Shown here: one piece after another, positions 10,173-18,151 of the stretch | Layout: every line of letters starts with the position of its first letter | Numbering within the stretch: the first letter of the stretch is position 1 | Assembly (NCBI RefSeq): GCF_036634195.1 | Contig: NZ_JAZIFY010000001.1 | Coordinates: 6,706,501 to 6,770,500 of the forward strand | Reading direction: 5' to 3' | DNA from: Streptomyces sp. P9-A4 | GTDB taxonomy: Bacteria > Actinomycetota > Actinomycetes > Streptomycetales > Streptomycetaceae | DNA: 64,000 nt | Notes under the pieces: generated by a model | What the model saw: the letters and a program-made list of their open reading frames with translations, nothing else | What the model was told of the DNA's origin: nothing | Database searches by the model: none | Program-made: the position numbers and the translations under genes

Positions 10173-10940
10173 TCAGGGCTTGGCGAACACCATGACGTAG
10201 TCCGCCATCTCCCGGACCCGCTCCACGTCCGGGTCCGGGAGCGCGAGAAGGCGCTCCCGCGTCTCTTCCACGAGCCGGCCGGCCTGCGCACCCCTGACCG
10301 CCCACGCACCGGTGAACAGGCCGCCCGACAGGGAGCGCGCCATGTCACGGGGCGACAGCCGGAAGGCCATGGGCCGTTCGGACGCCCTGCCCCGGTAGAC
10401 CAGGCCCCGGGCCTCGGCGATCGGGGCCAGCGTCCACGGGCCGTCCTGGCGGGTCCGGTCCGGGTCCAGCCGCTCCTCCAGGGCCCCGACGACGAGACCG
10501 ATGTCGTCCGTGGGGCGGGTGCCCCCGGCCGGGATCACCAGATAGCGGCCACCGGGCCGCAGCACCCGGGCGACCTCGTCGAAGACCCGCCCGTGGTCGG
10601 GCCCGGCGTGCAGCAGCCAGGTGGACACCGCCTGGCTCACCGACCCGGTCCGCACCGGGAGGCGGCAGGCGTCGGCCACCGCCACCCGCGACCCCAGCCG
10701 CGCCCGCGCCAGGGCGAGCATGCCGGGGGAGAGGTCGAGCCCGTGCACCGAGTGTCCGCGCGCGGTCAGTTCGGCCGCGACGATGCCGGTGCCCACGCCG
10801 ATGTCGAGCACCGGGCGGGCCGGGTCGAGCAGCGGCGCGAGCATCTCGGCGAAACCGGCCGCCCGTGCCGTACCGCCGCGCGAGGCGTCGTAACCCGGGG
10901 CGATCTCGTCGAACTCCGCGACCTCGGAGGTCGGTCCCAT
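10173..10940 (-). CDS. Class I SAM-dependent methyltransferase
   Basis: 255 residues from the ATG at 10940, with AAAGGA upstream. SAM-binding motif I is VLDIGVGTGIVAAEL, the acidic loop is VHGLDLSPGMLALARARL, and the post-motif is VFDEVARVLRPGGRYLVIP, as in ubiE-like or small-molecule methyltransferases (Methyltransf_11). It lies 32 bases downstream of a P450 on the same strand, so methylation probably follows or accompanies that oxidation. Substrate unknown. Whether it serves the divergent pentapeptide/P450 gene pair is an open possibility. Confidence 0.82.
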   Translation of the reverse strand: MGPTSEVAEFDEIAPGYDASRGGTARAAGFAEMLAPLLDPARPVLDIGVGTGIVAAELTARGHSVHGLDLSPGMLALARARLGSRVAVADACRLPVRTGSVSQAVSTWLLHAGPDHGRVFDEVARVLRPGGRYLVIPAGGTRPTDDIGLVVGALEERLDPDRTRQDGPWTLAPIAEARGLVYRGRASERPMAFRLSPRDMARSLSGGLFTGAWAVRGAQAGRLVEETRERLLALPDPDVERVREMADYVMVFAKP

Positions 10941-10972: not shown

Positions 10973-12262
10973 TCAGGCCCCGGAGGCGTCGGAAGCGCCG
11001 ACGGTGCCGGGGGTGCCGGGGGTGCCAGGAGTGCCGGGGGTGTGCGGGGTGAAGGCCACGGGCAGCGTCGCCATGCCGCGCAGGATGCCCTCGCGCCGGC
11101 TCAGGTCCGCGTCCGGGTCGGCCAGGCGGAGGTCGGGGAAGCGGCGCAGCAGCGTGCCGATGGCGATCCTGGCCTCGGCCCGCGCGAGCGGAGCGCCCAG
11201 GCAGAAATGCACACCGTGGCCGAAAGCGAGCTGTTGCGGAACCTCGCGGCGTGCCACGTCGAGAATGTCGGCACGGTCGTAGCGGGCGGGATCGCGGTTG
11301 GCCGCTGCGAGCCCGATGATGATCATCTCGCCCGGCGGGACGGTGACCCCGCCGATCTCGTACGCGTCGACGGTGAACCGGGCGACACCGCGGCTCACCG
11401 GGCCCTCGTAGCGCAGGAGTTCCTCGATCGCGCCGGGCAGCAGCGAGGGGTCGTCGCGGAGGGCGGCGAACTGGTCGGGATGGCGGAGGAGGGCGTGGAC
11501 GCCGTTGGCGATGAGGCTCGCCGTCGTCTCGTGGCCGGCGAGCGTGAGCAGGATGGTCATGGCCGTCAGCTCGCGGTCGCTGATCCGCGCCTCGGCCTGT
11601 GCCGCGCACAGCGCGCTCAGCAGGTCGTCCTTGGGGTCGGCCTTGCGCTGCGCGATCAACGGCTCGAAGAACTCGGTGAGTTCGGCGCGGGCCTGAGCGC
11701 CCTTGGCGAGCCGCTCCGGTGTGTTGGGCGGCATGATGAGGCCGACGGCGAGCCGGGCGAAGTCGGGCTGTCCCTCCGCCGGGATGCCGATGAGTTCACT
11801 GAGCACCGCCATCGGTAGCGGCAGGGCGAACTCGGAGACCAGGTCGGCGGTTCCGCGTGCCGCGACCGCGTCGAGCAGGGCGTCGGTGTGGGCCTGGACG
11901 CGGGGCGCGAGCTGCTCGACCCGGCGGGCGGTGAAGGCCTTCGAGGCGAGGGTGCGCAGCCGGGTGTGGTCCTCGCCGTTGGCGACGAGCATGCTGGCCA
12001 TCAGGACGTTGGTGCGCTCCTGATGGGCCATCTCCTCCTCAAGTCCGTTGACCCCGACGGGACTACTGCTGAGCCGGGGGTCGGTGAGGGCCGCCACGGC
12101 CTCGTCGTAGCCGGTGACCATCCAGACTTCAAGGGTGGGATTCAGCCGTACGCGCTGGACGACTCCGTGCTCGCGGATGCGCTCGAAGAGCGGGTAGGGG
12201 TTGGGCTGTTGGGCGACGTTTACCGGGACATCGTGAACGATTGCCTGGTCTTGACCGGTCAT
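10973..12262 (-). CDS. Cytochrome P450 (first of a divergent pair)
   Basis: 429 residues. The I-helix oxygen-binding motif is LAGHETTASL, the K-helix ExxR is EELLRY, and the heme loop is FGHGVHFCLGAPLARAE. This is a bacterial CYP105/107-like class I enzyme needing external ferredoxin; no ferredoxin gene is adjacent. GGGGAG lies nine bases before the ATG. The C-terminus carries an unusual tail of repeated Thr-Pro-Gly units encoded by 9-bp DNA repeats (about 11003-11040). The methyltransferase follows. The upstream region is a 238-base divergent promoter shared with the second P450. Confidence 0.9.
   Translation of the reverse strand: MTGQDQAIVHDVPVNVAQQPNPYPLFERIREHGVVQRVRLNPTLEVWMVTGYDEAVAALTDPRLSSSPVGVNGLEEEMAHQERTNVLMASMLVANGEDHTRLRTLASKAFTARRVEQLAPRVQAHTDALLDAVAARGTADLVSEFALPLPMAVLSELIGIPAEGQPDFARLAVGLIMPPNTPERLAKGAQARAELTEFFEPLIAQRKADPKDDLLSALCAAQAEARISDRELTAMTILLTLAGHETTASLIANGVHALLRHPDQFAALRDDPSLLPGAIEELLRYEGPVSRGVARFTVDAYEIGGVTVPPGEMIIIGLAAANRDPARYDRADILDVARREVPQQLAFGHGVHFCLGAPLARAEARIAIGTLLRRFPDLRLADPDADLSRREGILRGMATLPVAFTPHTPGTPGTPGTPGTVGASDASGA
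11003..11040 (-). repeat. 9-bp tandem repeat in the P450 3' end
   Basis: About four units of a nine-base G-rich repeat (GGTGCCGGG with variants) encode the Thr-Pro-Gly tail of the P450. The number of units is likely to vary between strains. Confidence 0.6.
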
Positions 12263-12342
12263 CTTCCGTAACTCCCCGACGCTTTGTGAAAGATCTCTGG
12301 CAGGTAGTCATACCAGCCACCCCAGTTGCGTGGTAGCGTCAC
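12259..12342 (-). CDS. Possible 27-residue aromatic-rich peptide overlapping the P450 start
   Basis: A GTG-initiated frame of 27 codons ends in a TGA that overlaps the ATG of the minus-strand P450 as ATGA. The encoded sequence is rich in Trp and Tyr (RNWGGWYDYLPEIFHKASG). I find no good ribosome binding site before the GTG, and the same frame stays open further upstream to 12462, so it may simply be promoter DNA that happens to be open. Listed because P450 partners of tiny peptides are often missed and the neighbouring P450 has one. Confidence 0.2.
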   Translation of the reverse strand: MTLPRNWGGWYDYLPEIFHKASGSYGR

Positions 12343-12500
12343 CGGCGCTCGGCTCGGATGATGTACGGCGAAGGACCGGCGAACCGTCGGTGACGTACCG
12401 GAGAGACCCTCCACCCACCGGTGGCACGGCGTCTCGACACCGCTCAACTTGGAAGCAGCCAAGGCCTCAACCAGGCCCTATGCGCAGGGGGAGACGTTTC

Positions 12501-13691
12501 GTGGAGCAAGCGGCAGCCGTGGACCCGATTCTGGATCTGGCCCGTCCGTCGATCCTGCGGAACCCCTACCCGGCGTACGCCCGGATGCGGGAGACCGCCC
12601 CGGTCTTCTGGCACGAATTGCTCGGTTCCTGGGTGCTGACCCGGCACGCCGACTGCCTCGCCGTGCTCACCGACAGCAACCGTTTCGCCTCCGACTGGCG
12701 CCGTGCCGGCGAGGACATCCCGGCCCCGCTGCTGAGCGTCCAGACCCTCGACCCGCCGGAGCACACGGCCATCCGGCACCTCCTGCTCGACGGCTTCCGG
12801 GCCCAGGATCGCCGGGCGCTCCACGAGGATCTCGACCGGTGGATCGCCGAACTCCTCGCCGAGCTGGCCGAGCGTCCCTCGTTCGACTTCGTCGGGGAGC
12901 TGGCCGAGCCCGTCGCCCTCCGTTTCGTGACCGCCTTCCTCGGCGTACCGGCGCCCGACCTCGACTGGTTCGTGCCCATGTCCCGTACCGTCGTGGACGG
13001 CATGGACGCCGGGCTCTGGCCGGAGAAGCACGAGCCGGCCGTCCTCGCGCGGGCCCGGCTCGCGGAGTACGCGGGCGGGTGGCTCGAAGCTCCGCCCAAC
13101 GAGGGCCTCATCGCCCATGTCGCCGAACACGCGGCGGACAGTGGTGTCGCAGAAACGGTTCTTCGCAACAGTCTGCGCGCCGTCCTCCACGCCGGCTACG
13201 AATCGGCCTCCCGGCTCCTCGGCAACGCGGCGGTGGCCCTCCTCACCACCCCCGGCGCGCTCGCCGCGTTCCGGGCGAGCCCGTCGACGGCCGTCGACGA
13301 ACTCATTCGGTACGACGCACCCGTCCAGGCCGATGCCCGGGTCTGCGTCACCGACACCGAACTGGGTGGCGTCACGATGAAGGCGGGTGATCCGGTCACG
13401 CTCTTCCTCGGCGCGGCCAACCATGACCCGCTCCGTTTCGGCCACCCCACAGAGCTGCGACTCGACCGCGCCCCGAACCCGCACCTCGGGTTCGGCCGCG
13501 GGGCCCATGCCTGTCTGGGCGCGTCCATGGCGATCCGGCTCACCGGATCGGTCCTCGGGACCCTGGCCACGGACCACCCCTACGCACGGGCGGTCGCGGA
13601 ACCCGAACACCGGCGCAATCTGACCCTTCGCGGTCTCGACCGCTTCGAGGTCACGCTGCGCCCCCATACGGGGGAGGAGGTCACACCATGA
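12501..13691 (+). CDS. Cytochrome P450, candidate peptide-crosslinking enzyme (biarylitide type)
   Basis: 396 residues from a GTG with AGGGGGAG seven bases upstream; an ATG at 12480 in the same frame lacks such a site. The I-helix is LHAGYESASRLL (the usual Thr after the acid is Ser), ExxR is DELIRY, and the heme-Cys loop is FGRGAHACLGASMA. Its stop codon overlaps the start of a six-codon gene for MKYWH as ATGA, and the last codons of the P450 contain that gene's ribosome binding site. P450s of the biarylitide RiPP family join the aromatic side chains of Tyr and His in an M-x-Y-x-H pentapeptide. The function is inferred from this arrangement rather than from the P450 sequence alone. Confidence 0.85.
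   Translation: MEQAAAVDPILDLARPSILRNPYPAYARMRETAPVFWHELLGSWVLTRHADCLAVLTDSNRFASDWRRAGEDIPAPLLSVQTLDPPEHTAIRHLLLDGFRAQDRRALHEDLDRWIAELLAELAERPSFDFVGELAEPVALRFVTAFLGVPAPDLDWFVPMSRTVVDGMDAGLWPEKHEPAVLARARLAEYAGGWLEAPPNEGLIAHVAEHAADSGVAETVLRNSLRAVLHAGYESASRLLGNAAVALLTTPGALAAFRASPSTAVDELIRYDAPVQADARVCVTDTELGGVTMKAGDPVTLFLGAANHDPLRFGHPTELRLDRAPNPHLGFGRGAHACLGASMAIRLTGSVLGTLATDHPYARAVAEPEHRRNLTLRGLDRFEVTLRPHTGEEVTP
13672..13681 (+). promoter_or_regulatory. Strong ribosome binding site of the pentapeptide gene
   Basis: GGGAGGAGGT lies inside the last P450 codons, six bases before the ATG at 13688. It is the best anti-Shine-Dalgarno match in this neighbourhood and decides that the tiny frame is meant to be translated. 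Confidence 0.8.
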
Positions 13692-13705
13692 AGTACTGGC
13701 ACTGA
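13688..13705 (+). CDS. Pentapeptide RiPP precursor MKYWH (biarylitide-like)
   Basis: ATG AAG TAC TGG CAC TGA encodes only five residues. The start overlaps the P450 stop (ATGA) and sits six bases after GGGAGGAGGT. The peptide fits M-x-Y-x-H, the pattern of biarylitide precursors (for example MRYYH), where a partner P450 forms a bond between the Tyr and His side chains and the mature product is the C-terminal tripeptide ring, here Tyr-Trp-His. Differences from the described type are Lys at position 2 and the location after, rather than before, the P450. No protease or exporter is adjacent. A hairpin terminator follows at 13771-13807. Confidence 0.75.
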   Translation: MKYWH

Positions 13706-13721
13706 AAACACTGAGCGCGCG

Positions 13722-13738
13722 CCCGCCCGTGAGGCGGG
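13722..13738 (+). terminator. Short hairpin after the pentapeptide gene
   Basis: CCCGCC (13722-13727) pairs with GGCGGG (13733-13738) across a five-base loop, 17 bases after the pentapeptide stop. It may protect the 3' end of the tiny message or begin termination. Confidence 0.45.
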
Positions 13739-13770
13739 ACGACGCGCCGGTGCACGGCACACGTGCACCC

Positions 13771-13807
13771 GCCGGAGCCCGAGTCGGCTGCACGACCGGG
13801 CTCCGGC
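13771..13807 (+). terminator. Strong hairpin terminator of the P450/pentapeptide unit
   Basis: GCCGGAGCCCG (13771-13781) pairs perfectly with CGGGCTCCGGC (13797-13807); inside it GTCG pairs with CGAC after one bulged base, leaving a six-base loop. No T tract follows, as is common in Streptomyces. Confidence 0.7.
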
Positions 13808-13974
13808 CCCTTCACAGGGCCCGGTGAACCCCACGACCGAAGGCCCTCCATCCGGACACTTCGCGTCGTCCGCGTCACGAGAGCGTCGCCGGGTCGGTCC
13901 CCGTGACATCCTCGGACGAACCGCCCACACCGTATCCAGCCGTGGGCCTTCGTCGTCCTGCGCGGAGGGACACC

Positions 13975-14479: not shown

Positions 14480-15685
14480 TCAGGCCGAGCGCAGGGCGTC
14501 CGTCGGGGACACTCCGGCCGCGCGCAGGGCCGGGTAGATGCCGGCGACGGCGGCCACCAGGACCGACACCAGGGGTCCGGCGACGACCGTGTACAGCGGG
14601 ACGGCGGCCGGCCAGCCCTGCGCGAAGGCGTAGCCGTAGACGGTGAGGCCGCCCACCAGCAGTCCGCCGACCCCTCCGATGAAGCCCAACAGCACGGCCT
14701 CGATCAGGAACTGGACGGCGATCTGGCCGCTACGGGCGCCGAGCGCGCGGCGGAGTCCGACCTCGCCGCGGCGCTCCATCACGCCCACCACCATGGTGTT
14801 CGCGATGCCGACGCCGCCCACGAGCAGGGCGACCGCGGCGAGGGCGAGGACCAGTCCGGTGAGGGAGTCCTTGGTCTCGGCGCGCGCCGTGTACAGGTCC
14901 GAGGGGCGGCTGACGGCGACCGTGCTCGGGTGGGCGGGGTCCGCGGTGGCTCCGGCCACGGCCTGTACGGCGGGAACGCGTTCGGAGTGGGCCCTGAGGT
15001 AGACCATGGCGGCGGTGCCGTCCGAGCCGAGGTCGGCGGTGGCCTTGGGCCAGCCGACGAGCGCGGCGGTGCCCAGCTCGGGCGCGAGCTCGTTGGGGGC
15101 CAGGATTCCGATGACGGCGAACCACTGGCCGCCCAGCCAGACCCGCTCGCCCGGCGCGGTCACGCCGAGCCGCAGCGCGGCCTGGTCGCCCAGCACGGTG
15201 ACCGGGAGGTGCTCCCCGGCCCGGTCCAGCCAGCGCCCGCTGCTCAGGGTCGCGTGCAGAACGTCGAGCAGGTTGAGCCGGGCCGCCAGGACGGTGAGGC
15301 TGCCGGTCTGCTGGACGGGGACGAGGTCGTTTCGGTAGACCTGCGCCTTGGTGGCGCCGGTGGCCGTGACCTGCTGTACGGGGGCGATGTTGGCGAGCAT
15401 CTTCTCTGCTGTGGGCGGCAGCGGCACCGGCTTCTGGTCGCTGCCGTTGCCGGGGGCGACGGTGAGCAGGTTGGAGCCGAGCTGGTCCAGACGCTCCAGC
15501 AGGTGCGCCTGGTTGGAGGCGGATATCCCGGTCACGGCGATGACGGCGGCGATGCCCAGGGAGACGCCGAGCGCGGACAGGGCGGAGCGCATCCGGCGCG
15601 TGCGCGGCCCGATCATGCCAAGGCGCAGCATGTCCATGGGGCGCAGCCGGGTACGGCGCGCACCGGGGGTCTTGCGAGGGGTCAT
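14480..15685 (-). CDS. MacB/FtsX-type ABC transporter permease
   Basis: 401 residues. A first transmembrane helix near residue 35 (ALSALGVSLGIAAVIAVTGI) is followed by a large extracellular MacB-PCD-like domain and then three helices with the FtsX motif GGVGIANTMVVGVMERRGEVGLRRALGAR. The start overlaps the ATPase stop as ATGA. Together with the ATPase and the fusion protein it forms a tripartite-style efflux or envelope-stress exporter rather than a drug importer. The C-terminal motif YPALRAAGVSPTDALR is typical of the family. Confidence 0.88.
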   Translation of the reverse strand: MTPRKTPGARRTRLRPMDMLRLGMIGPRTRRMRSALSALGVSLGIAAVIAVTGISASNQAHLLERLDQLGSNLLTVAPGNGSDQKPVPLPPTAEKMLANIAPVQQVTATGATKAQVYRNDLVPVQQTGSLTVLAARLNLLDVLHATLSSGRWLDRAGEHLPVTVLGDQAALRLGVTAPGERVWLGGQWFAVIGILAPNELAPELGTAALVGWPKATADLGSDGTAAMVYLRAHSERVPAVQAVAGATADPAHPSTVAVSRPSDLYTARAETKDSLTGLVLALAAVALLVGGVGIANTMVVGVMERRGEVGLRRALGARSGQIAVQFLIEAVLLGFIGGVGGLLVGGLTVYGYAFAQGWPAAVPLYTVVAGPLVSVLVAAVAGIYPALRAAGVSPTDALRSA

Positions 15686-16410
15686 CGGACGGCTCCTGCG
15701 GGCTTCTGGCCCTGCTCGTCGAAGTCGATGCGGCCGTCGTGGATACCGATGCGCCGGGGGAAGGAAGCGGCCAGTTCGCGGTCGTGGGTGATGACGACGA
15801 CCGTGGTGCCGTCGGCGTTCAGGGTCCGCAACAGGTCGACGGCGCCGGCGCCGGAGACGCTGTCCAGGGCGCCGGTGGGTTCGTCCGCGAGCAGCAGCGC
15901 GGGGCGGGCGACGAGCGCGCGGGCGATGGCGACCCGCTGTTTCTCGCCGCCGGAGAGCTGGTCGGGGTGGTGGTCCAGCCGGTGTCCGAGGCCCACCTCG
16001 TGCAGGGCCTCGACGGCGCGGGCTCGGCGCTGCGCGGCGGGGGCACCGCTGTAGAGGAGGCCGGTGGCGACGTTCTCGACCGTGGTGAGACCGGACAGCA
16101 GGAAGAACTGCTGGAAGACGAAGCCGATCCGGTGGGCGCGCAGGGCGGCCAGCTCGGGGTCGGAGACGGCGGCGAGGTCGCGTCCTTCGAAGCGCAGCTG
16201 TCCCGCCGTCGGCCGGTCGAGGGAGCCGAGCAGGGCGAGGAGGGTGGACTTGCCGGAGCCGGAGGGGCCGACCACGGCGAGGAGTTCGCCCGCCTCGACG
16301 GTGAGGTCGATGCCGTGCAGGACGCGCAACGGCGGTGAGCCCGGGTACTCCTTGGTCACGCCGACGAGTTCCAGTACCGGGGCCTTGCCGCCCGGCCGGG
16401 GAAGCGTCAC
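15682..16410 (-). CDS. ABC transporter ATPase (MacB/LolD type)
   Basis: 242 residues with Walker A GPSGSGKST, Q-loop VFQQFFLL, signature LSGGEKQR, Walker B LLLADEPTGALD and switch ITHDREL. It energises the adjacent permease and overlaps both neighbours by four bases, so all three are translationally coupled. Confidence 0.92.
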   Translation of the reverse strand: MTLPRPGGKAPVLELVGVTKEYPGSPPLRVLHGIDLTVEAGELLAVVGPSGSGKSTLLALLGSLDRPTAGQLRFEGRDLAAVSDPELAALRAHRIGFVFQQFFLLSGLTTVENVATGLLYSGAPAAQRRARAVEALHEVGLGHRLDHHPDQLSGGEKQRVAIARALVARPALLLADEPTGALDSVSGAGAVDLLRTLNADGTTVVVITHDRELAASFPRRIGIHDGRIDFDEQGQKPAGAVR

Positions 16411-17621
16411 TTCGGGATCACCACCTGGTCGCCCGCCCGGACATCCCCGGTGATCTGCGCCTTGGCGTCGGCGACCAGTCCCAGCTGGACCCTGACGAGC
16501 CGGATGGCGGAGCCGTCGGCGACCTGGACGCCGTAGCCGCCGCCGTCCAGGGCGAGCAGCGCGGTGACGGGGACGATGAGCGCGTCGCTGACGGTGTTGC
16601 CGACGACGGTGACGGTCACGGAGGACGGCCCGGCCTGCGCGGCCTTCCGCTGGCTGTCGAGAGCGATGGTCACGGTGGTCTTTTCCGCACCGCCCCCGCC
16701 CTCCTGGCCGTTGTCCCCGCCGCCGTCGGAGCCGGCTCGGACCAGCGACCGGATGCGGCCGTCGACGGTGGAGCCGTCGGTCAGCTTCACCGTGACCCGG
16801 CCGTTGGGCTTGAACTGGGAGAGCTGGTTGTCGGCGGGCTGCACGACGGCGACCAGCTTGGCGCCGGTCACGGTCATCAGCGCGGTGCCCCCGAGAGGCG
16901 AGCCGAGCTGCGCGCCCAGATGATGGATCCGTACGGCCGGCCGCGGCAGCACGACGACCCTGCCGAGCGCGACCGTCCCGGTCTGCTTCTCACCGAGGGC
17001 CTTCTGCCAGCGCTTGACGGCGGTGGCCGTGCCGGAGGTGAACTTCTGGTCCACCGCCAGGCCCAGCCCGTCGGCGTGGCCGAGGTCGATCAGGTTCCGC
17101 TTGAGCTGCTCGACGTCCTGGCCGTCGGTGACGCCGGGGCCGAGGTCGCGCCACATCGGCCGGTCACCGGTGAACAGCACGACGGGCCGGCCGTCCACCT
17201 CGTACAGCTCCGCACCGGCCTTGACGACCGCGCCGACGGCGGGCAGCGCGGTGAGGGTCCCACGCCCGGCGGCGACGATGGGGGTGGGACCGTCGTAGGC
17301 GAGGGCACCGCCGACCTGGATGCCGCTGGACAGCGAGCCCTGCTGTACGGGGGCGGTGGCGTGGTCGACCGCCTGCTGCGCGGTGGGGGAGTCGGGGCGC
17401 TCCCAAGGGCGCGTGGCGGCGAGCACGCCCGAGCCGCCGAGCACGACGACAAGGGCGAGCGGTATGACGATCCTGCGGCGCCCGCGCCGCGCGGGTGCGG
17501 GCGAGCCGGCGGCGGGGGTGGTGGTCCCGGCGGCCGTGGTGGTCTCAGCGGCTGCGGTCTCGGCGGCCGTGGTATTGGCGGCTGCGGTCTCGGCGGCCGT
17601 GGTCTCGGCAGGGCGGCTCAT
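16407..17621 (-). CDS. Efflux periplasmic-adaptor-like protein with peptidoglycan-binding domain
   Basis: 404 residues. The N-terminal 45 residues are Ala/Thr repeats (TTAAETAAAETTTAAG) followed by one membrane anchor (RRRIVIPLALVVVLGGSGVLAA). A lipoyl-like strand region (GTLTALPAVGAVVKAGAELYEVDGRPVVLF), a PG-binding-1-like stretch (DVEQLKRNLIDLGHADGL, ATAVKRWQKALG) and an HlyD-like beta domain follow. It links the ABC pump to the wall. The ATG at 17621 has GGTGAG upstream; GTG at 17627 would overlap the lipoprotein stop. Confidence 0.8.
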   Translation of the reverse strand: MSRPAETTAAETAAANTTAAETAAAETTTAAGTTTPAAGSPAPARRGRRRIVIPLALVVVLGGSGVLAATRPWERPDSPTAQQAVDHATAPVQQGSLSSGIQVGGALAYDGPTPIVAAGRGTLTALPAVGAVVKAGAELYEVDGRPVVLFTGDRPMWRDLGPGVTDGQDVEQLKRNLIDLGHADGLGLAVDQKFTSGTATAVKRWQKALGEKQTGTVALGRVVVLPRPAVRIHHLGAQLGSPLGGTALMTVTGAKLVAVVQPADNQLSQFKPNGRVTVKLTDGSTVDGRIRSLVRAGSDGGGDNGQEGGGGAEKTTVTIALDSQRKAAQAGPSSVTVTVVGNTVSDALIVPVTALLALDGGGYGVQVADGSAIRLVRVQLGLVADAKAQITGDVRAGDQVVIPK

Positions 17622-17623
17622 GA

Positions 17624-18151
17624 TCACTCACCGATCGAGTAGCCGGGCATCGGCAGCTTGCCGCAGGCAGGTTGCATGGCTTCCCACCGGGCGGCGTTGA
17701 ACGAGGCCGGGGTGAACTTGAGTATCCCGGTCTTGGGGTCGGGGTCGGGAATGTCCGCGTATCCGTTCTTCCGCGCGCACGCGACGAAGGCACGAGCTTG
17801 CTCGATGAACTTCTCGTTGTTCTTCTGGGTGGCCTGGTGGATGCCGGGAACCTTCGCATCGCAGAGCTTCGTCGCCGCGTCGAGGCCGTCGGCTCCGGCG
17901 GGACCGTCGACGCTTGTGGCGGGGAAGGTGATGTTGCCGTCCTTGTCCTGCTCGACGCTGTTCTGCCCCTGCTGGTGCATGCAGTTCACCCAGGCCTGCC
18001 GCACCGCGTTGTCGTCCTGCGGCTTGTTCCGTCCCGCACCGTCGCCCCCCGCCACATCGGGCGCCGAGGACGGTGAGGAGCAGCCGCTCACCGCCAGTGC
18101 CGCCGCCACGGCGGCCGCCGCCAGTGCTGTCCGTACGATCCTGGTGCGCAT
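17624..18151 (-). CDS. Lipoprotein of the ABC efflux operon
   Basis: 175 residues with a signal peptide ending in the lipobox LAVSGC near residue 24. The mature part has four Cys (VNCMHQQG, KLCDAK, FVACARKNG, QPACGK) that probably form two disulfides. It is the first gene of the operon with the adaptor, ATPase and permease and is divergent from the response regulator gene. It resembles small lipoproteins seen beside such pumps; the function may be ligand sensing or delivery. Confidence 0.78.
   Translation of the reverse strand: MRTRIVRTALAAAAVAAALAVSGCSSPSSAPDVAGGDGAGRNKPQDDNAVRQAWVNCMHQQGQNSVEQDKDGNITFPATSVDGPAGADGLDAATKLCDAKVPGIHQATQKNNEKFIEQARAFVACARKNGYADIPDPDPKTGILKFTPASFNAARWEAMQPACGKLPMPGYSIGE

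Follow-up and report, generated by a model that had tools for sequence, protein, structure and literature searches.

A second cytochrome P450 accompanies the five-codon MKYWH biarylitide gene in Streptomyces and other Tyr-Trp-His loci

The window (the whole 64-kb stretch of DNA that we analysed) holds an 18-bp gene for the pentapeptide MKYWH at the end of a biarylitide-type cytochrome P450 gene, here called P450a, with a second P450 gene, P450b, running in the opposite direction on the other side. We consider it fairly probable, taken as a whole, that P450a likely joins Tyr3 to His5 of MKYWH and that P450b then carries out a further oxidation of the crosslinked Tyr-Trp-His, with Trp4 as the likeliest site. 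Biarylitides of the MKYWH kind, of which this is a Streptomyces member, were known already; what is added here is the two-P450 architecture specific to Tyr-Trp-His cores.

The precursor gene is on the plus strand (13688..13705) and reads ATG AAG TAC TGG CAC TGA, with a leader MK and a core Tyr-Trp-His. Its ATG occupies 13688-13690 and its TGA 13703-13705, and P450a ends in CCA TGA with the stop at 13689-13691. Direct reading of the letters confirmed the ATGA overlap that the earlier note had described between the P450a stop and the MKYWH start, and also the ribosome-binding site GGGGGAGGAGGT (13670..13681, plus strand), which lies within the last P450a codons and six bases 5' of the precursor ATG. 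A biarylitide locus is expected to have a five-residue precursor of the form MxYx[Y/H] with its own ribosome-binding site, and the window has one. The "strong terminator" claimed behind the gene stood up in part. There are stable hairpins 3' of the precursor (13715..13820, plus strand; a 181-nt fold that includes the gene end has a z of -4.9) and these may mark the end of the transcript, but they have no T-run and we found no T-tailed terminator on the precursor strand. About 0.8 kb behind the precursor, and facing it, are MacB/FtsX-type ABC exporter genes (14480-17627 of the window, minus strand).

Five codons are short, and the frame could in principle be there by chance beside an ordinary small-molecule hydroxylase. 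The frame is alone in the 64-kb window: on neither strand is there a second M-x-[YWHF]-x-[YHWF]-stop frame starting with ATG, GTG or TTG, and an ATG-started M-x-Y-x-H-stop was absent from one strand of 20 Mb of first-order Markov sequence with the composition of the window. It is the conservation of the 18-mer that refutes chance; this rarity, the active-site residues and the place of P450a in the tree also speak against it, and we give the explanation practically no weight.

An identical 18-mer was present in 26 of 26 distinct Streptomyces loci, the window counted, in a pattern scan that was not anchored on the 18-mer and a recount that followed it. These loci carry 26 distinct P450a proteins including the window's own, and the relatives are 80-97% identical to the window P450a. 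Each of the 26 has the 18-mer at the P450a stop or just behind it, and the ATGA overlap is found in all but four (4 nt past the stop in L051-L053, 25 nt in L057). The locus of Streptomyces diastatochromogenes ATCC 21481 (L021/L055) has a P450a frame that is broken mid-gene, and its overlap is with the last part of the frame. It keeps MKYWH and P450b despite the broken P450a, which may reflect decay or a sequencing error. The nucleotide alignment had 18 rows (the window and 17 relatives) and was anchored on the 18-mer; in it, only 6 of 1182 P450a windows of 18 nt were as invariant as the precursor, and invariant columns made up 59% of P450a against 10% of the 120 nt behind the precursor. The precursor is conserved with its P450 across relatives (the homologue search matched 41 genomes, from which 30 loci were taken in), and the M-x-Y-x-H frame that the earlier note expected behind close homologues of P450a is indeed there. 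Two copies of a pentapeptide gene stand beside one P450 in L023, L036, L064 and L065.

P450a (396 aa, 12501..13691, plus strand, with a GTG start at 12501) is a biarylitide-type crosslinking P450 of the BytO type. Its top PDB matches are RufO (8spp/9eby/9m47), 22yx (an entry without identification) and P450Blt (8u2m), at 314-353 bits, followed by 9jvj/9jv0 at 269-274 bits; all the rest score 160 bits or less. The tree, built with homologue proteins from 120 listed of 281 matches, has 83 rows and takes in 11 of the 26 distinct Streptomyces MKYWH P450s. We omitted L036, P0046, P0052 and OUT_L002, which had been in the first tree. We also dropped L126-L128 and L130, for which no pentapeptide was found at a distance of up to 1.5 kb, and L056, at 31% identity. 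P450a falls inside the biarylitide clade and apart from the ordinary outgroup P450, as the earlier note had supposed. The same tree holds P450Blt, RufO and the Actinomadura hibisca enzyme, and the precursor stands close to a P450 of this BytO type. The window P450a is in a Streptomyces MKYWH clade with support 100/100. That clade nests in a group of 29 rows (93/70) which also holds the A. hibisca, MRYWH and MRYWY enzymes; we would call the support for this group moderate. Trp4 (MKYWH, MRYWH or MRYWY) is found in 25 of the 25 rows of the group that have DNA, versus 0 of 49 precursor-bearing rows outside it.

A pentapeptide of the biarylitide type was found beside 74 of the 76 tree loci, the misses being L028 and L062. 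In a 50-row half of the tree (99/94), 46 of 46 rows with DNA have a precursor that follows the P450 or begins inside its last codons (L091). Of the 30 loci outside that half, 27 have it ahead of the P450 and one, L125, has it behind; none was found in L028 and L062. The place of the precursor is therefore a trait of this half-clade. It had been claimed as new that the precursor lies behind the P450, and this has to be withdrawn in view of these 46 loci, A. hibisca among them. Only the ATGA overlap is, judging by the loci compared, particular to the Streptomyces group. Lys at position 2, likewise put forward as new, is not: MKYWH has been published (PMC13417212), and a basic residue is the stated preference at position 2 (PMC9113118). 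Searches for further P450 loci gave no new one in 35 genomes of one order or in 396 genomes of the phylum, while one family-level search did yield new loci. Behind the biarylitide-type P450s of L022, L023, L024, L026, L027 and L092, the pentapeptide has His at both core positions (MRHAH, MRHVH), and the five Streptomyces enzymes among these loci have Gln in place of the I-helix His235 and Glu239.

We next come to the chemistry of P450a. A July 2026 paper (PMC13417212) counts MKYWH among the most widespread motifs of the biarylitides, whose function it states to be unknown. In the same paper, AchB acted on an MKYWH peptide with Nle for Met to link Tyr3 C6 to His N-tau, with Trp preferred at position 4; the enzyme crosslinked alone in vitro, and in vivo work was unsuccessful. 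We took the A. hibisca protein P0106 (identical to L075, cluster L156) as AchB from its species, motif and place. We rejected a single clade of all MKYWH P450s together with AchB (AU p 0.007, 18 MKYWH rows). Outside the Streptomyces group, the P450s with the highest identity are partners of MRYRH/MRYWH (58-59%), with the MKYWH partners at 49-54%. AchB chemistry is thus being carried over about 54% identity.

The active site supports doing so. PMC12186263 names positions said to separate crosslinking from nitration, and PMC10929621 assigns to His234 of P450Blt the role of directing the C-N bond. At seven of seven compared active-site positions, the window P450a has the residues of P450Blt (row L131). 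Among them are V169, H235, E239 and S240 (RufO numbering), the four that we used to recognise an enzyme making the C-N (Tyr-His N-tau) crosslink. The Ala that chain 8ukz has at the Glu position we took to be the E238A variant named in PMC10929621. L131/L176 differs from this P450Blt chain in one residue, and the MRYLH precursor before L131 served as an unplanned control. P450Blt-like residues together with the AchB result on MKYWH lead us to predict a Tyr C - His N-tau bond for P450a, and by analogy with these enzymes MKYWH very probably receives a biarylitide-type crosslink.

The best PDB bit scores of P450a are to RufO, so that P450a might instead nitrate Tyr3 of the pentapeptide using nitric oxide. 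The genome does have a nitric oxide synthase, outside the window and 48 kb from P450a (contig 6669918-6670967), and so do 11 of 14 related MKYWH genomes, one of which (G224) has it in pieces, versus 2 of 14 other Streptomyces. However, P450a has V169 and S240 like P450Blt, and not the V240 and D169 (in three relatives H169) of RufO and the enzymes related to it; where the RufO type calls for Asp169, Asn165 and Val240 with an adjacent synthase, the window has V, S and S. In RufO-like loci (L025, L085-L087, L177), the synthase gene stands between the precursor and the P450. The MKYWH relatives have it 72-624 kb away or on a different contig, with 3 of 14 lacking it, and the flanks taken in for the seven M[KR]YWH loci from other families showed none. 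Within 20 kb around the synthase of this genome, no P450 matched P450a or P450b. Because the synthase is distant, absent in three MKYWH genomes and without a matching P450 nearby, we read its presence as shared ancestry. We rejected nitration on the residues, the synthase distance and the absence in 3 of 14 MKYWH genomes, and consider it very improbable.

The earlier note left P450b out and called the locus "minimal"; here we disagree because P450b is a constant partner by co-occurrence. P450b (429 aa, 10973..12262, minus strand) is a canonical monooxygenase-type P450 with the I-helix AGHETT. Between the two P450 genes is a shared divergent intergenic region (12263..12500), possibly a common promoter or operator, in which 13 columns in a run, GCGTGGTAGCGTC (12328-12340), are invariant across the 18 aligned rows. 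The head-to-head arrangement of P450b and P450a recurs in 18 of 18 Streptomyces contigs, where P450b is 82-97% identical and mostly more conserved than P450a, and P450b adjoins P450a in 14 of 14 MKYWH genomes at 88-96% identity. The 18 contigs and 14 genomes amount to 25 distinct Streptomyces relatives, with P450b beside the pair in 25 of 25 (in L054 it is partial, near the contig start). Among 41 control Streptomyces genomes, 15 of which carry another P450a-like gene, six match P450b at E 1e-100 or better with 48-51% identity and 35 have no such match.

Seven M[KR]YWH loci from two other families, that of A. hibisca among them, were compared as well, and 7 of 7 have a P450b orthologue, 49-54% identical, at 0.1-2.0 kb behind the precursor. 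The order of the pair varies (divergent in Streptomyces, tandem elsewhere) and the pair is still kept. No P450b (0 of 21) turned up in biarylitide loci with a different core, which were picked after P450b had been noticed and had flanks of about 5-8 kb; the matches there were unrelated P450s of at most 39% identity and the loci's own biarylitide-type P450s. It is absent from MRYWY loci (4 of 4 with wide flanks). In a tree that draws on 120 listed of 2421 matching proteins, the P450b of YWH loci form one clade (99/95) together with several database proteins. Two of these are from Micromonospora sp. NPDC003197 and Spirillospora sp. NPDC127200, organisms that also have P450a homologues. In the P450a tree and the P450b tree alike, the MKYWH locus L113/L162 falls with the Actinomadura-type loci (f17) rather than beside the MRYWH locus from f37, the family to which L113/L162 itself belongs and which we took to be Micromonosporaceae. 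From this shared placement, it appears that P450a and P450b moved together. A single gain and a single loss in the tree may be all that underlies the link between P450b and YWH, as the MRYWY loci that lack P450b nest among YWH loci.

From these patterns of occurrence we believe that P450b is probably part of the MKYWH pathway. One can still argue for a plain biarylitide with one P450, where P450a crosslinks, housekeeping enzymes trim and P450b serves some other pathway. In S. coelicolor, bytAO was enough to make Planomonospora biarylitide-YYH (PMC9113118); AchB needs no partner in vitro (PMC13417212); and P450b resembles small-molecule hydroxylases. Against this, P450b accompanies the YWH core in all of the Streptomyces relatives and all seven other loci, with differing gene orders, and it was not found in the 21 other biarylitide loci and has no match listed above 51% among the control genomes. 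We consider the one-P450 explanation improbable.

As for what P450b does, AchB crosslinks in vitro without it, so it is not needed for the crosslink step. It occurs with Trp4-His5 and is missing with Trp4-Tyr5 and with His5 without Trp4, which makes crosslinked Tyr-Trp-His its likely substrate and Trp4 the likeliest site, an assignment that we make only tentatively. The closest solved relatives are small-molecule P450s such as 5cje and PikC, named as hydroxylases or monooxygenases. With these relatives and an AGHETT I-helix, oxygen insertion is likelier than ring closure. The other option is a second ring closed by P450b, for example from Trp4 to Tyr3 or the backbone, which would give a bicyclic tripeptide and not a hydroxylated one. 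The restriction of P450b to Trp4-His5 cores would suit this as well. In tryptorubin A, Trp reportedly takes part in the crosslinks. P450s known from tryptorubin A connect aromatic side chains with one another as well as with the backbone (PMC13417212). However, the P450b I-helix is the ordinary AGHETT, unlike HAGYES of the window P450a, and its nearest solved relatives are the named hydroxylases and monooxygenases, so a second ring seems to us rather unlikely.

The other neighbouring genes are less constant. A class I SAM methyltransferase gene behind P450b (10173..10940, minus strand) is a possible tailoring gene with a weaker link to the locus. We rejected it as an equally constant partner, since it is in 13 of 18 Streptomyces contigs and is 29% identical to the one in Actinomadura-type loci. 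Six of the seven non-Streptomyces M[KR]YWH loci have a methyltransferase and an Asp/Asn-hydroxylase-like gene (PF05118) between the precursor and P450b; in L158, the remaining one, P450b comes immediately after the precursor. As both genes occur around MRYxH and MRYWY loci too, neither is specific to the core. The nearest solved protein to the methyltransferase of the other families is 3g2m, PCZA361.24, which we take to be a glycopeptide N-methyltransferase. The order P450a, precursor, methyltransferase, Asp/Asn-hydroxylase-like gene, P450b is constant in L156, L157, L159, L160, L161 and L162, and a LysR regulator is next after P450b in L157, L159 and L160 and partly in L158. No protease could be singled out for the locus; the genome has 14 stretches matching PF00326.

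Returning to the two-P450 pathway, we picture it as follows. Ribosomes that end P450a would restart on the peptide gene; the ATGA overlap, the strong ribosome-binding site and the shared strand are observed. P450a would then bind MKYWH and form the Tyr C - His N-tau bond, as AchB and the residues His235, Glu239, Ser240 and Val169 (RufO numbering) suggest, and a housekeeping protease would trim Met-Lys. P450b, of the AGHETT monooxygenase type, would act on the YWH ring; co-occurrence and joint inheritance argue for the partnership, and the reaction and site are our proposal. The methyltransferase, present in most Streptomyces loci, might conceivably cap the product.

In the literature searched, supplements aside, we found no biarylitide tied to a second cytochrome P450 (the review PMC11843346 has "biarylitide" and "two P450" in unrelated places). 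MKYWH was found in one paper, PMC13417212, and MRYWH in none; the passages of that paper that we drew on do not mention P450b, and its Table S1 and figures may list such a gene. It is possible, and we put this forward with some reserve, that Tyr-Trp-His biarylitides are a two-P450 subclass in which P450a ties Tyr3 to His5 and a P450b co-inherited in three actinobacterial families rebuilds Trp4, possibly with a second ring. The published monocycle would then be an intermediate, and the true product of a motif that is among the commonest in biarylitides would be unseen. If P450b goes with the YWH core alone, the known pathway misses a step, and the picture of an 18-bp precursor with a single enzyme would be corrected for this subclass. 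The loci also give the exact gene pairs for testing, and the calculated [M+H]+ values of candidate products are 503.2037 for crosslinked YWH, 519.1986 with one added O, 501.1881 with a second ring, 533.2143 with N-methyl and O, and 762.3392 for the entire crosslinked MKYWH.

Among known systems, AchB of Actinomadura hibisca (PMC13417212) shares the identical MKYWH behind the P450, the Trp4 tree group and, in its cluster (L156), a P450b orthologue at 53%. It differs in that its P450a is about 54% identical and in a separate clade (AU p 0.007), with the I-helix HAGYTS in place of HAGYES; its precursor is 52 nt behind the P450 with another stop codon, where the window has the ATGA overlap; and its P450b is tandem instead of divergent, with methyltransferase and Asp/Asn-hydroxylase-like genes between. 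P450Blt of Micromonospora sp. MW-13 (8u2m; L131/L176) has the same seven active-site residues and the same expected Tyr C - His N bond, but it is 47% identical to P450a, its MRYLH precursor is before the P450, it is reported to be intolerant of Trp4, and no P450b was found in the flanks taken in. RufO (8spp, 9eby) also binds an M-x-Y-x-H pentapeptide and has the highest PDB bit score with P450a, but it nitrates Tyr, has D169 and V240, and its relatives among these loci have a NO synthase gene beside them. The AciB/MRYWY biarylitides share the Trp4 group and a precursor behind the P450, and differ in Tyr5, the C-C link and the lack of P450b in 4 of 4 loci; their precursors are 0.8-1.6 kb behind the P450 (L107, L108, L132, L133, L134, L076, L078), which agrees with the separation described in PMC13417212. 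Finally, myxarylin (BytA-BytO-BytZ) has an M-x-Y-x-H precursor, a C-N link and a cluster methyltransferase like the window, whereas its operon is given as precursor-first and the account of it that we drew on mentions no second P450.
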